From: Candidatus Iainarchaeum sp.
GTDB lineage: Archaea; Iainarchaeota; Iainarchaeia; Iainarchaeales; UBA10219
NCBI GenBank assembly: GCA_018304425.1
Contig: JAGVWE010000002.1
Coordinates: 1-64,000, forward strand
DNA: 64,000 nt
Direction of reading: 5' to 3'
A program made the translations under genes and the position numbers. Each line of letters begins with the position of its first letter. Positions within the stretch are counted from its first letter, which is position 1. The notes below the pieces were generated by a model. That model was not told the DNA's origin, made no database searches, and saw only the letters and a list, made by a program, of their open reading frames with translations. Below, piece after piece: positions 19,164 to 30,708 of this stretch.

Positions 19164-21947
19164 ATGTATTCCAAAGAGGAAGCAAAAAAGATTATCGCTG
19201 CGCTGATTGCAAAATACGAAAAGGTAGTGGCTGAGGGCAAATTAAAGGACTACAGTGAAGCTGAAACACAACGCGGATTTATCGAGCCGCTCTTTAAAGC
19301 TCTTGGTTGGGATATTGAGAATAGAGAAGAAGTCTCACTCGAAGAGACCATTTCTAAGAAAAGGGCCGACTATGGTTTTAGAATAAATGGTGCACCCCAA
19401 TTTTACCTGGAAGCAAAACCGCTCAAGGCCGATTTAGAAAACATCAACTACGCATACCAAGTCATTAACTATGCTTGGACCATGGATTGCACTTGGGCCG
19501 TCCTAACAGATTTTGAAGGATTAAAAATTTATAACGCTGAATGGAAAGCCAAGCAGCCAAAGGACCAACTTTTTCTCCCATTTAAATATACTGATTATCT
19601 GGACCGTTTTGATGACCTTTGGCACCTAAGCAAAGCAGCTTTTCAAGAACATGCGCTAGATACTTTGGCGGAACGGTACGGAGGAAAAACTAAGCGGGCT
19701 AACATTACCTCACAAATATTTAATGACTTTATGGCTTGGCGCCTTTTGCTAACTAAAAATATTGCAAAAAACAAGAATGCATTGGATGAAGAAACATTAG
19801 ATGAGGCCGTACAAAGACTACTCGACAGGCTTATATTCATTCGAGTGTGCGAGGATAGGAAAATAGAACCGGAGTCGTTGAGGCAAGATTTTAGGCTTTG
19901 GCAGGCAAACAAGAAAGGCCGATCATTATCCTCAATTCTTGCCGAAAAATTCAGAAAATTCGATAAAATTTACAATAGTAAGCTATTTGCACCCCACCTT
20001 TGCGAAACACTTAGGATCGATGAAGATGTCTTGGAACAGATAATTGACGAATTATACGAAAAAGTCGAGAACGGCACCCCAATCCATCATTACGATTTCT
20101 CCATAATTGAATCCGACGTGCTCGGCAATATTTATGAACAATATTTGGGCCACATACTAAGAAAGACCGCACAGCGTGCCACGCTGTCGGAGAAAAAACA
20201 ACACAGAAAAGAAATGGGCATATTTTATACTCCAACCTACATTGTTGATTACATCGTAAAGAATACTATTGGGGAAAAAACGAAAGGACTCGAAATTAGC
20301 CATTTAACAAAAATAAAGATCCTAGACCCTGCCTGTGGGTCCGGCTCATTCTTGATCAAGGCTTTCGACCAATTGGTGGGGACTTATCGAAACAAGCTTA
20401 AAAATGAAAATCTTTGGTTAATTAAATCAGAAATCCTGACAAAAAATATTTATGGGGTTGATTTGGATGAAAAGGCCGTTGAAATAACTCAACTAAATCT
20501 CTTGCTTAAAGCCCTTGAAAAAAGAGAGTTGCTTCCGGACCTATCCGATAATATCAAGTGCGGAAATAGTCTCATTAGCAACTCATTAAACTATAAGAAA
20601 AACTTCGTTTGGAACGACGAATTCAAAAAAGTGTTCGACGCAGGCAAATTTGATGTCGTAGTTGGAAATCCACCCTACGTCAGACAAGAGGAGCTTAGCC
20701 CGTACAAGAAGCTTTTGGAAAGCTATGAAACGTACCATAGCATGGCAGATCTCTACGTCTATTTCTTTGAAAAAGGCATGAAAGTCCTCAAAGAAGACGG
20801 GCTCTTGGGTTTTATTGTTTCCAATAAGTTCTTGAAGGCTGGCTACGGTAAAAACCTGCGCAAATTCTTGTCTCAATACCACATTTGTGAATTCATAGAC
20901 TTTGGAGATCTCCAAGTATTCAAAGATGCAACAACATACCCTTGCATTATCATACTCAAACATAGAAAGGAATTAAACCCAAAAATTAAAGTAACAAAAG
21001 TATTGACATTGGACTTCGATAGCCTCACAAATTACGTCCAACAAAACTCATTTCTTGTCAATCAAAATAGCCTCGATAATGAAAATGGATGGAACTTCGA
21101 AACTTCACAAACCAGCGCACTAATAGAAAGAATCAAAGCAAATACCACCCCCCTCAAAGATTATCTCAAAAACCAAATTTACTGGGGCATTAAAACAGGT
21201 CTGGGCAAAGCATTCGTTATTGATGGCAGCACAAAGAATCAGCTAATCGCCGAAGATCCAAAAAGCACTGAAATAATTAAGCCATTTTTATCTGGCCGAG
21301 AAATCCGGCGTTATTCAATAATTCAGCCGAGCGAATATGTTATTTTTACCCGACGCGGGATAGATATTGAAAGGTACCAAGCAGTAAAAAAACACTTAGA
21401 AAAGTTCCGACAAGAATTAACCCCTAAAAAAAGCGCCGAGCAAAAAATAGGTCGCAAACCTGGCCCATACATGTGGTATGAAATTCAAGACTCGGTCGCT
21501 TATTATAAGGAATTCGAAAAACCAAAAATTATCTTTGGAATAATGACGACCCAGCCCAGATTTACGTTAGACTACGACGGCTATTACGCAAATAATGCCA
21601 ACTTCATCATCCCATTAGAAGACAAGCATCTGCTAGGAATTCTGAACTCAAAAATGGGCTGGTACCTTGTCTCGCGAATCTGCACTCAAATAAGGGGCGG
21701 TTATCAACTTATATGGCAATATTTCGGCAACTTCCCGGTTCCCAAAGCAAGAGACCCAAAAATCGAAAAGCTCGTTGAAAAAATGCTCGAACTGGCACAA
21801 AAAATCGCCGCACTTAGAGATAAGGAAACGGATGAGAAAAGGAAGGCTGAGAAAGTGTTTCAGACAGTTGATTCTGAAATCAATCAACTCGTTTACAAAT
21901 TATATGGGGTAACCGAAGAAGAAAAGAAAATTATTGAGGGTTCATAA
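19164..21947 (+). CDS. type IIG restriction endonuclease-methyltransferase
   Basis: 927-aa fused enzyme. N-terminal nuclease domain with Asp69 in KRADYGF and Glu83-x-Lys85 in YLEAKPL; helical connector; gamma-class N6-adenine methylase with motif I LDPACGSGSF (about 387) and motif IV NPPY (about 502); and a C-terminal target-recognition domain (about 680-880) with RGGYQLIWQYFGNFPVPK. Eco57I-like architecture. Box A GTTTAAAAC about 25 bases before ATG 19164. The gene is far more AT-rich than the genome around it, which suggests recent transfer. Its stop overlaps the next start (TAATG). Confidence 0.93.
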   Translation: MYSKEEAKKIIAALIAKYEKVVAEGKLKDYSEAETQRGFIEPLFKALGWDIENREEVSLEETISKKRADYGFRINGAPQFYLEAKPLKADLENINYAYQVINYAWTMDCTWAVLTDFEGLKIYNAEWKAKQPKDQLFLPFKYTDYLDRFDDLWHLSKAAFQEHALDTLAERYGGKTKRANITSQIFNDFMAWRLLLTKNIAKNKNALDEETLDEAVQRLLDRLIFIRVCEDRKIEPESLRQDFRLWQANKKGRSLSSILAEKFRKFDKIYNSKLFAPHLCETLRIDEDVLEQIIDELYEKVENGTPIHHYDFSIIESDVLGNIYEQYLGHILRKTAQRATLSEKKQHRKEMGIFYTPTYIVDYIVKNTIGEKTKGLEISHLTKIKILDPACGSGSFLIKAFDQLVGTYRNKLKNENLWLIKSEILTKNIYGVDLDEKAVEITQLNLLLKALEKRELLPDLSDNIKCGNSLISNSLNYKKNFVWNDEFKKVFDAGKFDVVVGNPPYVRQEELSPYKKLLESYETYHSMADLYVYFFEKGMKVLKEDGLLGFIVSNKFLKAGYGKNLRKFLSQYHICEFIDFGDLQVFKDATTYPCIIILKHRKELNPKIKVTKVLTLDFDSLTNYVQQNSFLVNQNSLDNENGWNFETSQTSALIERIKANTTPLKDYLKNQIYWGIKTGLGKAFVIDGSTKNQLIAEDPKSTEIIKPFLSGREIRRYSIIQPSEYVIFTRRGIDIERYQAVKKHLEKFRQELTPKKSAEQKIGRKPGPYMWYEIQDSVAYYKEFEKPKIIFGIMTTQPRFTLDYDGYYANNANFIIPLEDKHLLGILNSKMGWYLVSRICTQIRGGYQLIWQYFGNFPVPKARDPKIEKLVEKMLELAQKIAALRDKETDEKRKAEKVFQTVDSEINQLVYKLYGVTEEEKKIIEGS

Positions 21948-22216: not shown

Positions 22217-23440
22217 TTGGGGCCAGTGAATCGGAAGGACTGGGGTAAATTTATCTCCCCCAGCGTCGATAAGCAGACCCCGTTTTATCGCTGGTATCTG
22301 TACAAGCACGGCTATTCTAAGCGATTGGTCGAACAAATCATAGCCAAATTCAAGCTCAAAGCTGGGCAGAGCGTGCTGGACCCTTTCTGCGGGGGCGGGA
22401 CCACGCTCCTAGCAGCCGCCGAAAACGGGCTCAATGCGGTCGGCTTCGACATAATGTCGTTCCCAGTGCTCGTCTCCAACACGAAAATGCTGCGCCCGAG
22501 CGTCTCTAACGTAGAGAAATATGAAAAGAAATTTACGCTCGAAAAAATAAGGGTCACAAAACCATACTCGCTGCCCGACATCAAAATATTTGAGAAAGCG
22601 TTCAATAAAAAGACGTTGAACTTCTTGCTGAAATTCCGTGGAAAAATCGACGACATAAAAAAACCGGCACTTAAGAACATCTTCCTACTGTGCTATCTGA
22701 AAACGTTAGAAAAGGCTGGCCGAGCACGGAAAAGCGGGGGGTTCCTTCGGCTTACAAAAGCTAGGAACGCTTCACAGAAGAAAATATTCACCCAATTCAC
22801 CAAATTCTTGGACGAGGTCAAGACAGATTTGAAAGCTGCAAGCAAACTAAAAGGAAAAGCGCAAGCAAAAGTTGGTGACAGCCGAAAAATCTCCAGCAAA
22901 CAGAAATTTGATGCAGTGATTAGCTCGCCACCCTATCCGAACCGGCACGACTACACGCGGGTCTATTTGCTCGAAGAAGCGTTAGGGTTCAACAAGAACG
23001 ACAAAGAAATCAAATGGCTCCGATACAAGACGCTGCGCTCGCACGTCGAAGCCAAAAAGCAAAAATTCGACGCGACGGGATATGTAAGGCCCGCCAAGTT
23101 GACACGCGCCATTAAAAAATTAGAAAAAAAAGACCTAAACAACCCCAAAATCGTCGAAATGATTGACGGATTCTTCGAAGATATGTATCTAACTCTCAAA
23201 AATGTCAAAGGTTGTGTCAAAGCCGGCGGGAAAGTGGGCTTTGTAATAAGCAACGCGCGCTACGCCGGTGTGCCGGTTCTAACAGATGAAATACTCAGGG
23301 ATGTAGGTAAACAAGCAGGCCTAGCCACCAAGGAAATTATCTTACTCCGAAATAGAGGGAATAGCAGCCAACAGATGAAAGAATACAATCGACTACCAGC
23401 CAGAGAAAGCCTAGTCATTTTTGAAAAGAGTCTTGGCTAA
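22217..23440 (+). CDS. DNA methyltransferase (N4-cytosine or N6-adenine)
   Basis: 407 aa. Motif I DPFCGGGTT at about residue 55 and motif IV SSPPYPNRHDY at about 237 give an amino-methyltransferase, with SPPY favouring N4-cytosine. The region between them and the C-terminal part after it are Lys-rich and may hold target recognition. Only TTG 22217 or GTG 22226 can start the gene; the first is given. It follows the type IIG enzyme on the same strand, giving a second methylase with no separate nuclease, unless the DUF262 or SIR2 gene next door acts with it. Its end overlaps the convergent DUF262 gene by 30 bases. Confidence 0.85.
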   Translation: MGPVNRKDWGKFISPSVDKQTPFYRWYLYKHGYSKRLVEQIIAKFKLKAGQSVLDPFCGGGTTLLAAAENGLNAVGFDIMSFPVLVSNTKMLRPSVSNVEKYEKKFTLEKIRVTKPYSLPDIKIFEKAFNKKTLNFLLKFRGKIDDIKKPALKNIFLLCYLKTLEKAGRARKSGGFLRLTKARNASQKKIFTQFTKFLDEVKTDLKAASKLKGKAQAKVGDSRKISSKQKFDAVISSPPYPNRHDYTRVYLLEEALGFNKNDKEIKWLRYKTLRSHVEAKKQKFDATGYVRPAKLTRAIKKLEKKDLNNPKIVEMIDGFFEDMYLTLKNVKGCVKAGGKVGFVISNARYAGVPVLTDEILRDVGKQAGLATKEIILLRNRGNSSQQMKEYNRLPARESLVIFEKSLG

Positions 23441-24538
23441 TTCATCGCTGATAACTTCCCCCGTTTTTTTATATTTGCCAAATGATTTAAGAAGAAACTC
23501 GTGCCGTTTAGTCACAGACGGCTTTTCTACTGATGCCTGCAAGACATATTTGTGGAAGTAGTCAAGCACAGCTTTATTTGTTGGAGCTTTAAAGTCACGC
23601 AGGAGCTTCATTTGATTCTTTATTTCTCTTATAAGCCTTAAATAAAACTGAACAAATTTCGAAACATCGTTGCGCCGGCCTTCATTAATTAATTCTTCAA
23701 CAAATAAATAAGCCGATACTGCCACAGCTCGACTAGATATAAGTTCCGCATCCTTTCCAAATTCTTTATCCATAACTTCCAATACGGCCTCAACATGTTT
23801 GATGCTTTTTGAATCTGCACCAATTTTTTTATATTGCTCAAAATCATTTGCTATATCTTCATAACGGGCCCTACGAAACTCACCGGAAATTCGTTTTGAA
23901 AACGAATTAAGCACCATTTGCGCCAGAGCAAACTCACGAGAAAAACGTTTAAATGAAAGTTTTGTGTGACGAAAAAATAACATGTCTCGGCCTTTAACCT
24001 TAAAAATAAAGTCCCTCAAATCACCAGTCATTGAATGCAACGACTCACCGGATTTTAATGGATCCCCAAGTTGTAACCTGGCAAACGTCTCACGAATAAG
24101 TTTATCGTCTGGCTTTACCAAAATACTAAAATCCAATTTATACTCGTCAGTAATAAACTTAGCAAGTTTGTTTTCCTTCTGTTCAAGTTCACGATAGCTA
24201 AATTCTGGCGCATCTTTTTCTTCAGTCAATTTAACCTTTAATGGTCGCCTTGGAGAAAAATCATCGCCAAAATACGAGGGCTTAAAAAATTCAACGATTG
24301 CCGTAATCCGCTGCTTACCATCAATGCACTCGTATACATCGTCTTTCGTTTCAGCCAAATATATTTTAGGGATGTCAATATCCTGAACCAGTGAATTAAT
24401 TAAACGGGCCTTTTTCCAAGGTGGCCAAATCTCCTCACGCTGATAGTCCGCATCCAAATCGATAAGAGGAAGCCATTTCTCAATGAAGTCCTGAACGTTA
24501 ATCTGAACACTTTTCCTTTTTTTAGATTGATACGCCAT
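23411..24538 (-). CDS. DUF262 (ParB-like) protein, defence-associated
   Basis: 375 aa. The N-terminal part matches DUF262: YQREEIWPPWKKARLINSLV, IPKIYL and the signature IDGKQR at about 73-77, the nucleotide-handling motif also present in the GmrS half of GmrSD type IV enzymes. There is no DUF1524/HNH domain, so nuclease activity is not evident. The C-terminal 200 residues are helical and unassigned. It follows the SIR2 gene directly: GTG 24547 would overlap the SIR2 stop as GTGA, while ATG 24538 is the conventional start. The pair is therefore probably one operon and one system. Confidence 0.8.
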   Translation of the reverse strand: MAYQSKKRKSVQINVQDFIEKWLPLIDLDADYQREEIWPPWKKARLINSLVQDIDIPKIYLAETKDDVYECIDGKQRITAIVEFFKPSYFGDDFSPRRPLKVKLTEEKDAPEFSYRELEQKENKLAKFITDEYKLDFSILVKPDDKLIRETFARLQLGDPLKSGESLHSMTGDLRDFIFKVKGRDMLFFRHTKLSFKRFSREFALAQMVLNSFSKRISGEFRRARYEDIANDFEQYKKIGADSKSIKHVEAVLEVMDKEFGKDAELISSRAVAVSAYLFVEELINEGRRNDVSKFVQFYLRLIREIKNQMKLLRDFKAPTNKAVLDYFHKYVLQASVEKPSVTKRHEFLLKSFGKYKKTGEVISDELAKTLFKND

Positions 24539-24543
24539 AAAAA

Positions 24544-25584
24544 TCACATCTTACAAACAACTTTTAACTTGGTGCTTTGCATACTGTTTGGAGGCAGCAT
24601 TAATTTACATTTTGCAGCAAGCCAGACCTTAAATGGGTTGGCATCCCAATTGGTTTTTGCATTATTAATCGCCTGAGAAAATTGAAGCCTGCCATGTTCT
24701 ATATTAAGCATTTTATCTATATTCGGAAAAAACCCCAAGGCCTTTCGTATTTCAATTCCAGAGTCATCAAAATCAATCAATTCAATTGTAAATCCATGTT
24801 TACGCTTTAGATGTGCCTTAAACAACAAATTAATGAGGCCTGCATCGTTTTTGTCAAACGAACAGCCAATAACACGTAACACATCACATTCGGCAAGAAC
24901 TTCTGCGGCCTTTGCCCAAATAAGATTATAAGGTTCCTCAGAGTACTCTTTTTGTGTGCCTGGCGGAATCCAAGGAACATTAAGTCCTGAGTCTTCCCAC
25001 TCAAAGGAACCATGCAATTTTAATAAAGACATCCCTTTTTTCGCACAAGAAGACGTATGATTGCAATACGGAATGTCCTTTGTTTTTACGTTGTAGACGC
25101 TCCGGTAAGCTCTGTCAAGCAAGCCATCATAATTCAAAGTCATATATGCTAATACTTTCTCTTTTTTGGCAATATTTTTTAGCTGATGGAAAAAAAGAAG
25201 AGCTGAATATAATGTTGGCTTAACAGTCTTCCCATCAACCAACAAATGAGTGGTAATGTCCTTTTTCACTAGGTTTCGCAATGCATTAGCATGCTCATGA
25301 GACCCTTTACGCCTACTCGATTCTATAAGCGTAATAAATTGTTCGATATTTGCTGGCCTGTCTGATAGAACACGTATTAATGCATTCTTCACCCTGTGCA
25401 ATTTTTTTGACTTATTTAAAGCCTGGTGGATACGTTCAGAAATATTGCTTGTAAGCAGCCCCTTTTTTTCTTTAATGTCTTGTGAGAGCTCAGAGCCGTA
25501 CGAATACATAACTTCTGCATGAGTAGCTCCAGCACCAAACAAATAAGCAATTCGGAGGGGTGTGGATGTTCTCGCTTTTTGCAT
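24544..25584 (-). CDS. SIR2-domain protein, candidate NADase effector
   Basis: 346 aa. SIR2 signatures are visible: YLFGAGATHAEV at the N-terminus (NAD loop), MTLNYDGLL, and LLKLHGSFEW where the His would be catalytic. VLRVIGCSFDKNDAGLI and ELIDFDDS complete the Rossmann part. The zinc module of deacetylase sirtuins is lacking, as in the defence proteins that degrade NAD. It has its own box A (ATTTATAAG at about 25611-25619) and ATG 25584. AT-rich like the adjacent restriction genes. NAD depletion on phage or plasmid entry is inference. Confidence 0.85.
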   Translation of the reverse strand: MQKARTSTPLRIAYLFGAGATHAEVMYSYGSELSQDIKEKKGLLTSNISERIHQALNKSKKLHRVKNALIRVLSDRPANIEQFITLIESSRRKGSHEHANALRNLVKKDITTHLLVDGKTVKPTLYSALLFFHQLKNIAKKEKVLAYMTLNYDGLLDRAYRSVYNVKTKDIPYCNHTSSCAKKGMSLLKLHGSFEWEDSGLNVPWIPPGTQKEYSEEPYNLIWAKAAEVLAECDVLRVIGCSFDKNDAGLINLLFKAHLKRKHGFTIELIDFDDSGIEIRKALGFFPNIDKMLNIEHGRLQFSQAINNAKTNWDANPFKVWLAAKCKLMLPPNSMQSTKLKVVCKM

Positions 25585-25658: not shown

Positions 25659-25686
25659 CCTTCCGGGTAATCGCGTAGGCCCTTCG
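25659..25686 (-). repeat. GC-rich intergenic repeat, copy E (core only)
   Basis: On the minus strand GGGCCTACGCGATTACCCGG matches the head of copies A and F. It lies upstream of the SIR2 gene, in a 175-bp gap that otherwise shows only the SIR2 promoter. Confidence 0.5.
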
Positions 25687-27566: not shown

Positions 27567-27676
27567 CCGCCCCCCGTCCCTCGCTCAGATGGGCGTCCAT
27601 CGGGGCGCAAGGCTGGCCGTCCTTCTTTTTCTTTTCCACCGGGGCGGTGCGCTTCGGGTAATCCCGTAGGCCCTTA
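27567..27676 (-). repeat. GC-rich intergenic repeat, copy F
   Basis: On the minus strand it begins GGGCCTACGGGATTACCCG, containing the hairpin CGGG-ATTA-CCCG, and ends in GAGGGACGGGGGGCGGG. The middle differs from copy A. It lies between two convergent genes and touches the end of the one on the minus strand. Confidence 0.5.
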
Positions 27677-28242: not shown

Positions 28243-28276
28243 AACAAAATATAAATAGTTCGACGATTGACGTATT
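28243..28276 (+). promoter_or_regulatory. 34-bp promoter-like repeat, copy 3
   Basis: AACAAAATATAAATAGTTCG followed by ACGATTGACGTATT. Heads the AbiEi-like/nucleotidyltransferase module. A second box-A-like AAATATAAAAA lies at about 28308-28318, and the pair ACTATCAA (28318-28325) and TTGATAGT (28351-28358) forms an inverted repeat between it and ATG 28363. Confidence 0.7.
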
Positions 28277-28362
28277 ATTATAGATTAAAGGGGCCTTCAA
28301 GCGATAGAAATATAAAAACTATCAACAACTATAGTTATTATCAATATTTATTGATAGTTGTG

Positions 28363-29010
28363 ATGGAAATGGTTTCCCTGAAAGCCCCCAAGACCTTTGA
28401 AGTGGTGGAAGCGATCCTGGAACAAAAAAAATTCACGCAATTGGCGTTGAGCAGGCAAGTCGACGCCTCCTTCGGCATTGTCAACCGCACCACCCGCTGG
28501 CTCGAAGCGAAAAACTACGTCAAGAAGACGGGCAAGTTCTATGAGCTGCGGGACCCGGCCGGCATCCTGTCCTCCCTCGCCGTGTTCCGCGACATGAAAT
28601 CATTGATCATCGACGAAGTCACGGTCAGCCTGACGCCCGCGCAAATAAAGGGCCTCCTCCCCCCCGACCGGGTCTGTTACTGCCTGGAGACCGCGCTGGA
28701 AGAATACTCCAATTACTTCCGCGCCAACCGCGTGTGCGTGTATGTGGACAAGAAAGACGTGCCCCGGCTCCTGGCCCTGCTCGAAAACAGGAAAGGGCCT
28801 GGCACGCAAGTCGTCTTCTACGAGGAAAAGCCGCCCGTCAAAGGGAAAAAACCGACGCTGCCCGAATTCAAGGACACGCAGACGACCAATGAAAGCATCA
28901 ACCGCTGGTACACGCCGCGCACGCGCACGGTCATCGACCTGGTGTGCGACAACAAAGCCTACGCGGCCCAGGACCTCTTCATGAGCCTGTGGGGGATCAA
29001 GCTTGCCTGA
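28363..29010 (+). CDS. AbiEi-like winged-helix antitoxin/regulator
   Basis: 215 aa from ATG 28363 (MEMVSLKAPKTFEVVEAILE). The N-terminal winged helix (FTQLALSRQVDASFGIVNRT followed by LEAKNYVKKTGKFYEL) is clear; the rest has the mixed alpha/beta pattern of AbiEi-type proteins, with CYCLETALEEYSNYF and a C-terminal RTVIDLVCDNKAYAAQDLF. A TTG at 28267 would extend it, but the ATG matches a winged-helix start. Upstream inverted repeats suggest autoregulation. The stop overlaps the next gene. Confidence 0.7.
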   Translation: MEMVSLKAPKTFEVVEAILEQKKFTQLALSRQVDASFGIVNRTTRWLEAKNYVKKTGKFYELRDPAGILSSLAVFRDMKSLIIDEVTVSLTPAQIKGLLPPDRVCYCLETALEEYSNYFRANRVCVYVDKKDVPRLLALLENRKGPGTQVVFYEEKPPVKGKKPTLPEFKDTQTTNESINRWYTPRTRTVIDLVCDNKAYAAQDLFMSLWGIKLA

Positions 29011-29800
29011 GACCTCATACGCCGGCGACTATCGCCCGGAAGTCACCGACCTCTCCCGCGAAGAACTCCGCAACTTCCTGGACTGGTGCGCCAAACTGCT
29101 CGGCTACGAACCCACCATCATCGGCGGCTGGGCGGTCTACGCGCACGTGCCGGGACATCTCGGCTCCAGGGACATCGACGTGGTGTTCCCCACCAACCGA
29201 GCCATCGACGAAGTCATGGACAGATACTACGCCTACAACGGCTTCAAATGCGAGGGCGACCTCGAAAAGACCTTCCACAAGGAAGCGATGGTCGACGGAA
29301 AGACCGAGAAAATAATCTACGACGCGACGAGCTACGAGCGGAGGAATCGGCTGAAGGAAAAGGACTCCATCGAAATCCCCTGGAACCTCATCGAAACCCA
29401 CAAGGAACGCAAAGACCTGGCCGGCTTGAGCCTCTGGACGCCCAGCCTCGAGCTCCTCCTATTGTACAAGGTGAAAGCCTACCGGGACAGGAGCCATGAG
29501 CTATTGCACAAGGGCCTGCTCATCACGCCCGGCGACCGGAACCGGCTCAACTCCAAGATATGGAAGGACGCGGAGGACATCAAGGCGCTCGACGGCCTCG
29601 GAAAGACGGGCAAGAAGGAATTGAACCAGCTGCTCCGACAAACGGGGTTCAAGGAATATTACAAGGAAACGATGCGAGAAATCAGGCGGGTTTCACAGGA
29701 CTGCACGAAATGCGGCAAAACCATCCGGGCCGGCAACCCCAGCCAATTGAAAATCAACGTGGCACTGCACCTCAAAAAACACGAGATAGACGGCTACTAA
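29003..29800 (+). CDS. nucleotidyltransferase toxin-like protein with C2H2 tail
   Basis: 265 aa. The minimal nucleotidyltransferase motif is seen in IIGGWAVYAHVPGHLGSRDID, with the metal-binding Asp pair, like AbiEii and related enzymes. YKVKAYRDRSHELLHK corresponds to the second conserved block. The C-terminus carries CTKCGKTI...HLKKH, a possible zinc finger not usual for AbiEii. TTG 29003 starts inside the end of the antitoxin gene, an eight-base overlap; no ATG lies nearby. A type IV-like pair is likely. Confidence 0.75.
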   Translation: MPETSYAGDYRPEVTDLSREELRNFLDWCAKLLGYEPTIIGGWAVYAHVPGHLGSRDIDVVFPTNRAIDEVMDRYYAYNGFKCEGDLEKTFHKEAMVDGKTEKIIYDATSYERRNRLKEKDSIEIPWNLIETHKERKDLAGLSLWTPSLELLLLYKVKAYRDRSHELLHKGLLITPGDRNRLNSKIWKDAEDIKALDGLGKTGKKELNQLLRQTGFKEYYKETMREIRRVSQDCTKCGKTIRAGNPSQLKINVALHLKKHEIDGY

Positions 29801-30044: not shown

Positions 30045-30287
30045 ATGTCGGGTATGGTGCAAGTGGTGTTGTCTTTGAAGCAGGAGACCGAGCAGAAGCT
30101 GCGCAGGATGGCTCGGGAACTCAAGGGCGGAAAGAAGGGCGCGCTCTCCGCGGTCGTGACCGAGGCGCTCGACGAGTACGAGCAACGGGCCCAACAGATG
30201 CTGGCCCTCGAGAAGCTGCGAAAAATCGCGGACAAGGGCTTAAAGCTCGGCATCACGAAATTCAACCGGGAAGACGCCTATGACTAA
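30045..30287 (+). CDS. vapB: ribbon-helix-helix antitoxin, VapB-like
   Basis: 80 aa. VQVVLSLKQETEQKLRRMAR followed by KGALSAVVTEALDEYEQ is the same fold and spacing as the antitoxin at 12985, and the two proteins share the GGKKG(A/S)LS segment. The C-terminal 25 residues should contact VapC. It overlaps the toxin gene by eight bases and is preceded by a perfect palindrome and the promoter-like repeat. Confidence 0.85.
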   Translation: MSGMVQVVLSLKQETEQKLRRMARELKGGKKGALSAVVTEALDEYEQRAQQMLALEKLRKIADKGLKLGITKFNREDAYD

Positions 30288-30708
30288 CGAGGAGCCCATG
30301 CTGGTGGACAGCAACGTCCTGATCTACTTGGTCGACCACTCGGATGCGACCAAACACGCCGCGGCCCGCCGGCTGCTGGAAGAAATCATCCGCCACCCGC
30401 AAAACTATGTCGTGGCCACCCAGAACCTGCGCGAATTCGCTTCCGTGGCTCTCAAGAAGATGGGCCTCGACTACGCGGAACTCCTGGAAGCCTGCGACAC
30501 CTTCACCCGAAGCTTTGGCCGGATCCTGAGCGACACCGTGCGGGACGCCGTGGAAGCCTTCGCCCTCGCCAAGCGAACCAATTCCAGCTATTGGGATGCG
30601 CTATTAGCCAGCACCATGACCCGCAACGACGTGCACACCATCCTCACCGAAGACGAAAAGGACTTCAAGAAGTTTCCCGGCCTCGAAGTCATCAACCCAT
30701 TCAGGTGA
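30280..30708 (+). CDS. vapC: PIN-domain ribonuclease toxin, VapC-like
   Basis: 142 aa. Acidic PIN residues: D in LVDSNVLIY, E in NLREFASV, D in YWDALLAS and D in TEDEKDFKK. The C-terminus FPGLEVINPF is close to that of the VapC at 12588, so the two modules are related. All catalytic positions seem intact. An upstream ATG at 30280 overlaps the antitoxin end; ATG 30298 (MLVDSNV) is an alternative. Confidence 0.88.
   Translation: MTNEEPMLVDSNVLIYLVDHSDATKHAAARRLLEEIIRHPQNYVVATQNLREFASVALKKMGLDYAELLEACDTFTRSFGRILSDTVRDAVEAFALAKRTNSSYWDALLASTMTRNDVHTILTEDEKDFKKFPGLEVINPFR

Follow-up and report, generated by a model that had tools for sequence, protein, structure and literature searches.

A 64,000-nt stretch of the Candidatus Iainarchaeum sp. 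genome (contig JAGVWE010000002.1, positions 1 to 64,000; here termed the window) carries a SIR2-family gene followed on the same strand by a DUF262 gene. This raises the question of whether the two genes make up a defense system and what part is played by the DNA methyltransferase (methylase) gene that runs towards them. The initial annotation had proposed a two-gene SIR2-DUF262 system standing next to a solitary methylase. The pair was confirmed, but on both counts the proposal had to be revised, since the methylase belongs to the module as its third gene and the trio recurs in five other genomes. The three genes are arranged in the window as follows.

22217-23440, plus strand: DNA methyltransferase gene, 407 residues, TTG start; convergent with DUF262
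23411-24547, minus strand: DUF262 (GmrSD_N) gene, 378 residues from a GTG start; predicted ParB/Srx-type nucleoside triphosphatase (NTPase) and DNA-state sensor, without an HNH domain
24544-25584, minus strand: SIR2-family gene, 346 residues, ATG start; predicted NADase effector (NAD, nicotinamide adenine dinucleotide)

Both minus-strand open reading frames proved to be real, with Pfam matches to SIR2_2 and GmrSD_N. The four-base overlap that had been suggested between them (GTGA) holds for the GTG start of DUF262, and an ATG three codons inside that start would leave a short gap instead. The methylase and DUF262 share 30 nt at their 3' ends.

A three-gene module with one layout in archaea and bacteria

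The same layout of SIR2, DUF262 and a convergent methylase was found at five loci besides that of the window (L010 in genome G087, L155 in G361, L162 in G885, L163 in G848 and L164 in G1008), all in small bacterial genomes of 0.6 to 1.0 Mb that probably belong to Patescibacteria; the 16S rRNA of the window genome is archaeal (RF01959, 1327 bits). L010 (bacterium CG10_46_32) was found by DUF262 alignment, G361 with a SIR2 profile, and G885, G848 and G1008 with a larger profile. Because the trio proteins of G885 and G848 are identical, the six genomes hold five distinct loci. Identity between L010 and the window was 31% for SIR2 (over most of its length), 39% for DUF262 and 45% for the methylase, which is convergent and overlapping at L010 as well. 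Across the trio loci, the spacing between SIR2 and DUF262 ranged from -35 to +17 nt and that between the 3' ends of DUF262 and the methylase from -36 to +4 nt, and a methylase orthologue occupied the same convergent place every time. The flanks varied, with a type IIG restriction-modification (R-M) gene in the window, type ISP at L010, type III R-M at L155 and other genes at L162 and L164. Recurrence of this arrangement in five other genomes goes beyond chance, and the genes make up a conserved module whose layout is fixed in both archaea and bacteria.

Profile searches of the order to which G361 belongs gave strong SIR2 matches in 4 of 247 genomes, and the DUF262 and methylase profiles each singled out the same 4 of 246 (538 to 609 bits, with the next match at 130, and 775 to 822 bits, with the next at 123, respectively), scores that are inflated because the profiles were partly built from these same members. 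In that order all three families coincide in the same four genomes, always adjacent and with differing flanks, and no unpaired family member lay between the high and low score levels. Two weak matches were set aside, a short unrelated SIR2 fragment in G833 and a DUF262 protein with an HNH-like C terminus in G981. Single-sequence searches with the SIR2 of the window turned up no relatives in genome contigs, viral contigs or plasmids, and relatives came to light only through the DUF262 alignment; by the same kind of search, the trio SIR2 was not found in the phylum of the window (86 other genomes). Nor was it found in 327 genomes of the phylum of the Woesearchaeota locus, and neither the trio SIR2 nor the trio DUF262 was found on viral contigs.

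The trio DUF262 proteins formed one clade (100/100), within which the archaeal protein was nested beside those of G885, G848 and G1008 (99/98), apart from L010 and G361. This nesting of the archaeal copy among bacterial ones fits transfer between the domains, and judging from the tree the module appears to have crossed between archaea and bacteria. The trio methylases likewise grouped together (90/92); their nearest outsiders in the tree were plasmid methylases, one of which adjoins an AvaI/BsoBI-type nuclease.

The initial annotation had held that its proposal would fall if the pair occurred nowhere else or if each gene commonly had other partners. Neither is the case for the trio DUF262 clade, although DUF262 proteins in general have many partners. 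Among the direct neighbors of 73 DUF262 relatives (93 scanned), FRG was the commonest (19), SIR2 and PAPS (phosphoadenosine phosphosulfate) reductase occurred 6 times each, and HEPN was also among the commonest; OLD-like ATPases and a kinase were further partners. FRG is a possible additional effector pairing for DUF262, going by gene order. At two other loci, L007 and L008, a protein-kinase-like gene comes after DUF262, and a cysteine desulfurase (L007) or a PAPS reductase (L008) lies nearby; these are possibly a kinase-effector version of the same plan.

Predicted activities of the three proteins

The motifs on which the functional predictions rest lie at the following positions.

22376-22393, plus strand: S-adenosylmethionine-binding motif LDPFCG of the methylase; conserved in trio methylases
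22925-22936, plus strand: catalytic motif SPPY of the methylase (SPPYPNRHDYTR block); invariant in trio methylases
24308-24322, minus strand: DGKQR motif of DUF262, residues 76-80, the predicted nucleoside triphosphate (NTP)-binding site; invariant in trio DUF262s
25012-25014, minus strand: catalytic His (H191) of SIR2, in LKLHG; invariant in the six trio SIR2s and the Ssp-linked SIR2s described below
25126-25134, minus strand: N-Y-D of the SIR2 catalytic pocket (N151, Y152, D153); invariant in the same proteins
25528-25536, minus strand: GAG NAD-binding motif of SIR2, residues 17-19; invariant in the same proteins

The window SIR2 matched Pfam SIR2_2 (9.6e-06, 26.2 bits against a cut-off of 24.5) and the PADLOC models SIR2, SIR2-Ago and Dsr2. 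A profile of the six trio SIR2s matched the SIR2 of the solved SIR2-HerA complexes, its nearest solved relatives, with an E value of 0.0014; phmmer matches to designed PPR/solenoid proteins were discarded as repeat-composition artifacts. N151, Y152 and D153 are the counterparts of N133, Y134 and D135 in DSR2 and of N112, Y113 and D114 in ThsA, and H191 is that of DSR2 H171 and ThsA H152, so that the ThsA catalytic dyad is matched (PMC11263360). No CxxC was present in the window SIR2 or any of the six trio SIR2s, which have only two invariant Cys columns; the four-Cys zinc module of the protein deacetylase sirtuins is therefore absent, as had been surmised for the window protein. The GAG motif, N-Y-D and His pocket without a zinc tetrad is the combination found in the DSR, ThsA and SIR2-HerA class, and the window SIR2 is thus predicted to hydrolyze NAD+.

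DUF262 matched Pfam GmrSD_N (1.2e-14). As the initial annotation had held, its HNH half is lacking: no DUF1524 or HNH match was obtained with Pfam, and DHxxP occurs in none of the trio DUF262s. The AlphaFold2 model of the protein (mean predicted local distance difference test [pLDDT] score, 87.3) has a helical C-terminal half, and its top fold matches in the PDB were BrxU, which came first, the ParB/Noc CTPases, PadC and SspE, none of them below an E value of 0.001. From sequence and model, DUF262 is predicted to be a ParB/Srx-type NTPase, and by analogy it would be a reader of DNA modification state. PD-T4-2_A was the second-best PADLOC match at the locus; the best, NsnA, was left uninterpreted, as no paper on NsnA was found. 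An alternative is that DUF262 is itself a second effector, hydrolyzing NTPs or nicking DNA, with SIR2 as a backup toxin. Effector roles for ParB/Srx proteins, as nucleases or in the degradation of nucleotides, have been proposed (PMC10853773 and PMC12839542). However, the pairing of DUF262 with many toxins and effectors fits a sensor better, its C-terminal half is helical and Pfam found no nuclease domain in it, so that we regard this alternative as highly improbable.

The methylase matched Pfam N6_N4_Mtase (1.2e-10) and PADLOC MTase_II (2.4e-67) and has the conserved motifs of a type II R-M methyltransferase. A cognate endonuclease is absent: SIR2 and DUF262 fill its slot, neither with a nuclease domain by Pfam, and the adjacent type IIG gene encodes a separate, self-contained enzyme. 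At the level of sequence, then, the catalytic and nucleotide-binding motifs of the module are intact and the nuclease half is missing.

Modification state as a putative switch for NAD depletion

The module resembles an R-M system with a metabolic attack arm that drains NAD instead of cutting DNA, a reading to which we give about an even chance. The methylase would mark host DNA at its target sites as self, and DUF262 would inspect DNA and read its modification state. Upon meeting unmodified, invading DNA, DUF262 would switch on the co-transcribed SIR2, which would destroy NAD+, so that the cell is halted or killed and virus growth is stopped. We infer that methylation is what DUF262 reads, that the system is set off by unmethylated DNA and that it serves against viruses. 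Because the action of a NADase cannot be directed at a single DNA molecule, the sensor would most simply have to be kept off by host methylation. The conservation of the methylase as part of the module strengthens the initial guess that it provides self-recognition. SspE offers a precedent, its DUF262 domain sensing a mark on DNA and governing the effector (PMC9646914); growth arrest by SspE has also been reported when its modification partner is missing (PMC12707154).

DUF262 and SIR2 are also joined elsewhere. In several Bacteroidota (Hymenobacter, Persicitalea, Geofilum and another Bacteroidetes genome), the SIR2 gene comes after DUF262 and encodes a shorter protein of about 285 residues that resembles ThsA and DSR2, with an AAA ATPase gene and a PAPS-reductase-like gene upstream of DUF262. 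PADLOC scored genes of one such set (L021) as SspC (E = 0) and SspD (4e-91) and the cysteine desulfurase beside another (L038) as SspA/DndA. The window pair is not of the same lineage as these Hymenobacter-type pairs, which is ruled out by the reversed gene order, the other SIR2 subfamily and the separate DUF262 clade. With the methylase trio on one side and the SspC/SspD-linked pair on the other, DUF262-SIR2 has become linked with DNA modification on at least two occasions, each with its own gene order. There may be a class of R-M systems in which a DUF262 NTPase detects that the cognate methyl mark is missing and activates a SIR2 NADase, the coupling having arisen twice, with methylation and with phosphorothioation; we advance this tentatively, at somewhat less than an even chance.

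Several observations weigh against an R-M-like module with an NAD-draining arm. Only five distinct trio loci are known. The fold match of SIR2, in which SIR2-HerA structures rank first, is weak support, because of the poor quality of the AlphaFold model (mean pLDDT, 45.8). The NTPase of SspE is stimulated by modified (phosphorothioate [PT]) DNA, after which the enzyme acts on unmodified phage DNA (PMC9646914); this opposite polarity is the chief reason for caution. Finally, across the five loci the divergences of SIR2 and DUF262 are correlated (r = 0.93), whereas those of the methylase are uncorrelated with either (r = 0.17 and 0.09), and among the trio methylases that of the window is set off from the other four. 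SIR2 and DUF262 therefore travel as a unit, and the methylase, though always present, has by these comparisons a partly separate history.

This pattern speaks for an alternative in which SIR2 and DUF262 are a two-gene abortive-infection pair responding to modifications of phage DNA or to some other cue from the phage, with the methylase as a separate passenger or companion. A DUF262-SIR2 pair in Sinorhizobium americanum with no modification gene annotated beside it points the same way, as does the reading of modified DNA by GmrSD, BrxU and SspE. Against this, within the order of G361 methylases of this subfamily are confined to the very four genomes that carry the pair, always in the convergent place while the other flanks change, and we consider a pair of this kind unlikely. 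The polarity of SspE lends itself to another explanation, namely that methylated DNA switches on DUF262 and that SIR2 is released by a further signal or according to how modified and unmodified sites are balanced; the DUF262 protein of Dazbog is likewise thought to recognize methylated DNA (PMC10952713). Since SIR2 acts on soluble NAD, however, the cell's own methylated DNA would bring about self-killing unless another signal were required, and activation by modified DNA seems to us quite unlikely.

The module differs from its surroundings in composition. G+C contents are 0.385 (SIR2), 0.376 (DUF262) and 0.464 (methylase), compared to 0.573 for the window, and G+C at third codon positions is 0.35 in SIR2 and DUF262 versus 0.87 in the adjacent mazG-like gene. 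From its low G+C content, the stretch was probably acquired by the host genome. Type II R-M systems can act as addiction modules. Both the foreign composition and the type II-like layout would suit a selfish module of this kind, in which SIR2 kills cells that have lost the methylase and antiviral action is incidental. Several trio loci adjoin other restriction systems, which points to defense; addiction, which is compatible with an R-M-like, NAD-draining module and does not exclude it, is the least probable of the alternatives weighed here as an explanation in its own right, with very little to be expected of it.

Other genes of the region were also noted. The type IIG restriction-methyltransferase gene that adjoins the module (19164-21947, plus strand; Eco57I/TaqI_C domains) is low in G+C too, and the stretch from 19 to 26 kb of the window reads as a defense island. 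A 21-nt sequence, CGGGTAATC[G/C]CGTAGGCCCTT, is present in two copies close to the module, each at a gene border (25664-25684 and 27655-27675), and, by its position and recurrence, is possibly a dispersed intergenic repeat. Two genes at 28267-29800 (plus strand) encode a protein of DNA-binding type and one with a weak resemblance to nucleotidyltransferases (DUF6036, E value of 0.003) and are possibly an AbiE-like toxin-antitoxin pair, both family matches being weak. They are followed at 30045-30708 (plus strand) by a ribbon-helix-helix gene and, after it, a PIN-domain gene, resembling a VapBC toxin-antitoxin pair.

Relation to known systems

The initial annotation knew of no described SIR2-DUF262 pair, and none was found in the open-licence literature that was searched. 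There, only PMC10952713 joins DUF262, SIR2 and defense, with the domains in separate systems, and no DUF262-SIR2 system was found in the searched passages on PT systems, bacteriophage exclusion (BREX) and archaeal immunity. The combination of DUF262, SIR2 and methylase thus appears to be undescribed, although it may have been described elsewhere. If the proposed mechanism is true, modification-based self-recognition and suicide by NAD depletion would be joined in one compact module, a candidate defense in ultra-small archaea and bacteria, in which few systems have been recognized.

Each component has known counterparts. The module shares its layout with type II R-M systems, and a relative of its methylase stands beside an AvaI/BsoBI-type nuclease, but there is no endonuclease and SIR2-DUF262 occupies the restriction slot. 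The SIR2 has the same N/Y/D/H pocket, without a zinc module, as SIR2-HerA, DSR2 and ThsA; where those proteins work with HerA, TIR or a fused phage sensor, however, its partners are DUF262 and a methylase, and no HerA/FtsK-type match was obtained with Pfam among the scanned neighboring genes of the window. DUF262 resembles GmrSD and BrxU, its top fold match, in having a DGQQR-type motif, but the trio lacks their DUF1524 HNH nuclease and has a cognate methylase and SIR2. The SspABCD-SspE system also couples modification enzymes to a mark-reading DUF262 NTPase, and in Bacteroidota SspC and SspD directly precede DUF262-SIR2. In contrast, the trio has no Ssp genes (the neighbors of the window pair are the methylase and an R-M gene, with no sspBCD PT genes adjacent), its mark would be methylation, and a separate SIR2 replaces the HNH (DUF1524) nuclease. 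PD-T4-2 and the MAE_28990 HEPN operons, in which a 2013 survey described HEPN genes together with a ParB nuclease and a DNA methylase (PMC3710099), likewise combine DUF262 with a separate toxin-type effector; in the window, where neither Pfam nor PADLOC found HEPN beside DUF262, that effector is SIR2 rather than a HEPN RNase. Since DUF262 is already known with HNH (GmrSD and SspE) or with HEPN (PD-T4-2, and HEPN with ParB and methylase), the module represents a known plan with another effector, which suggests that DUF262 is a general reader of DNA modification that accepts effectors as varied as HNH, HEPN, FRG and SIR2.

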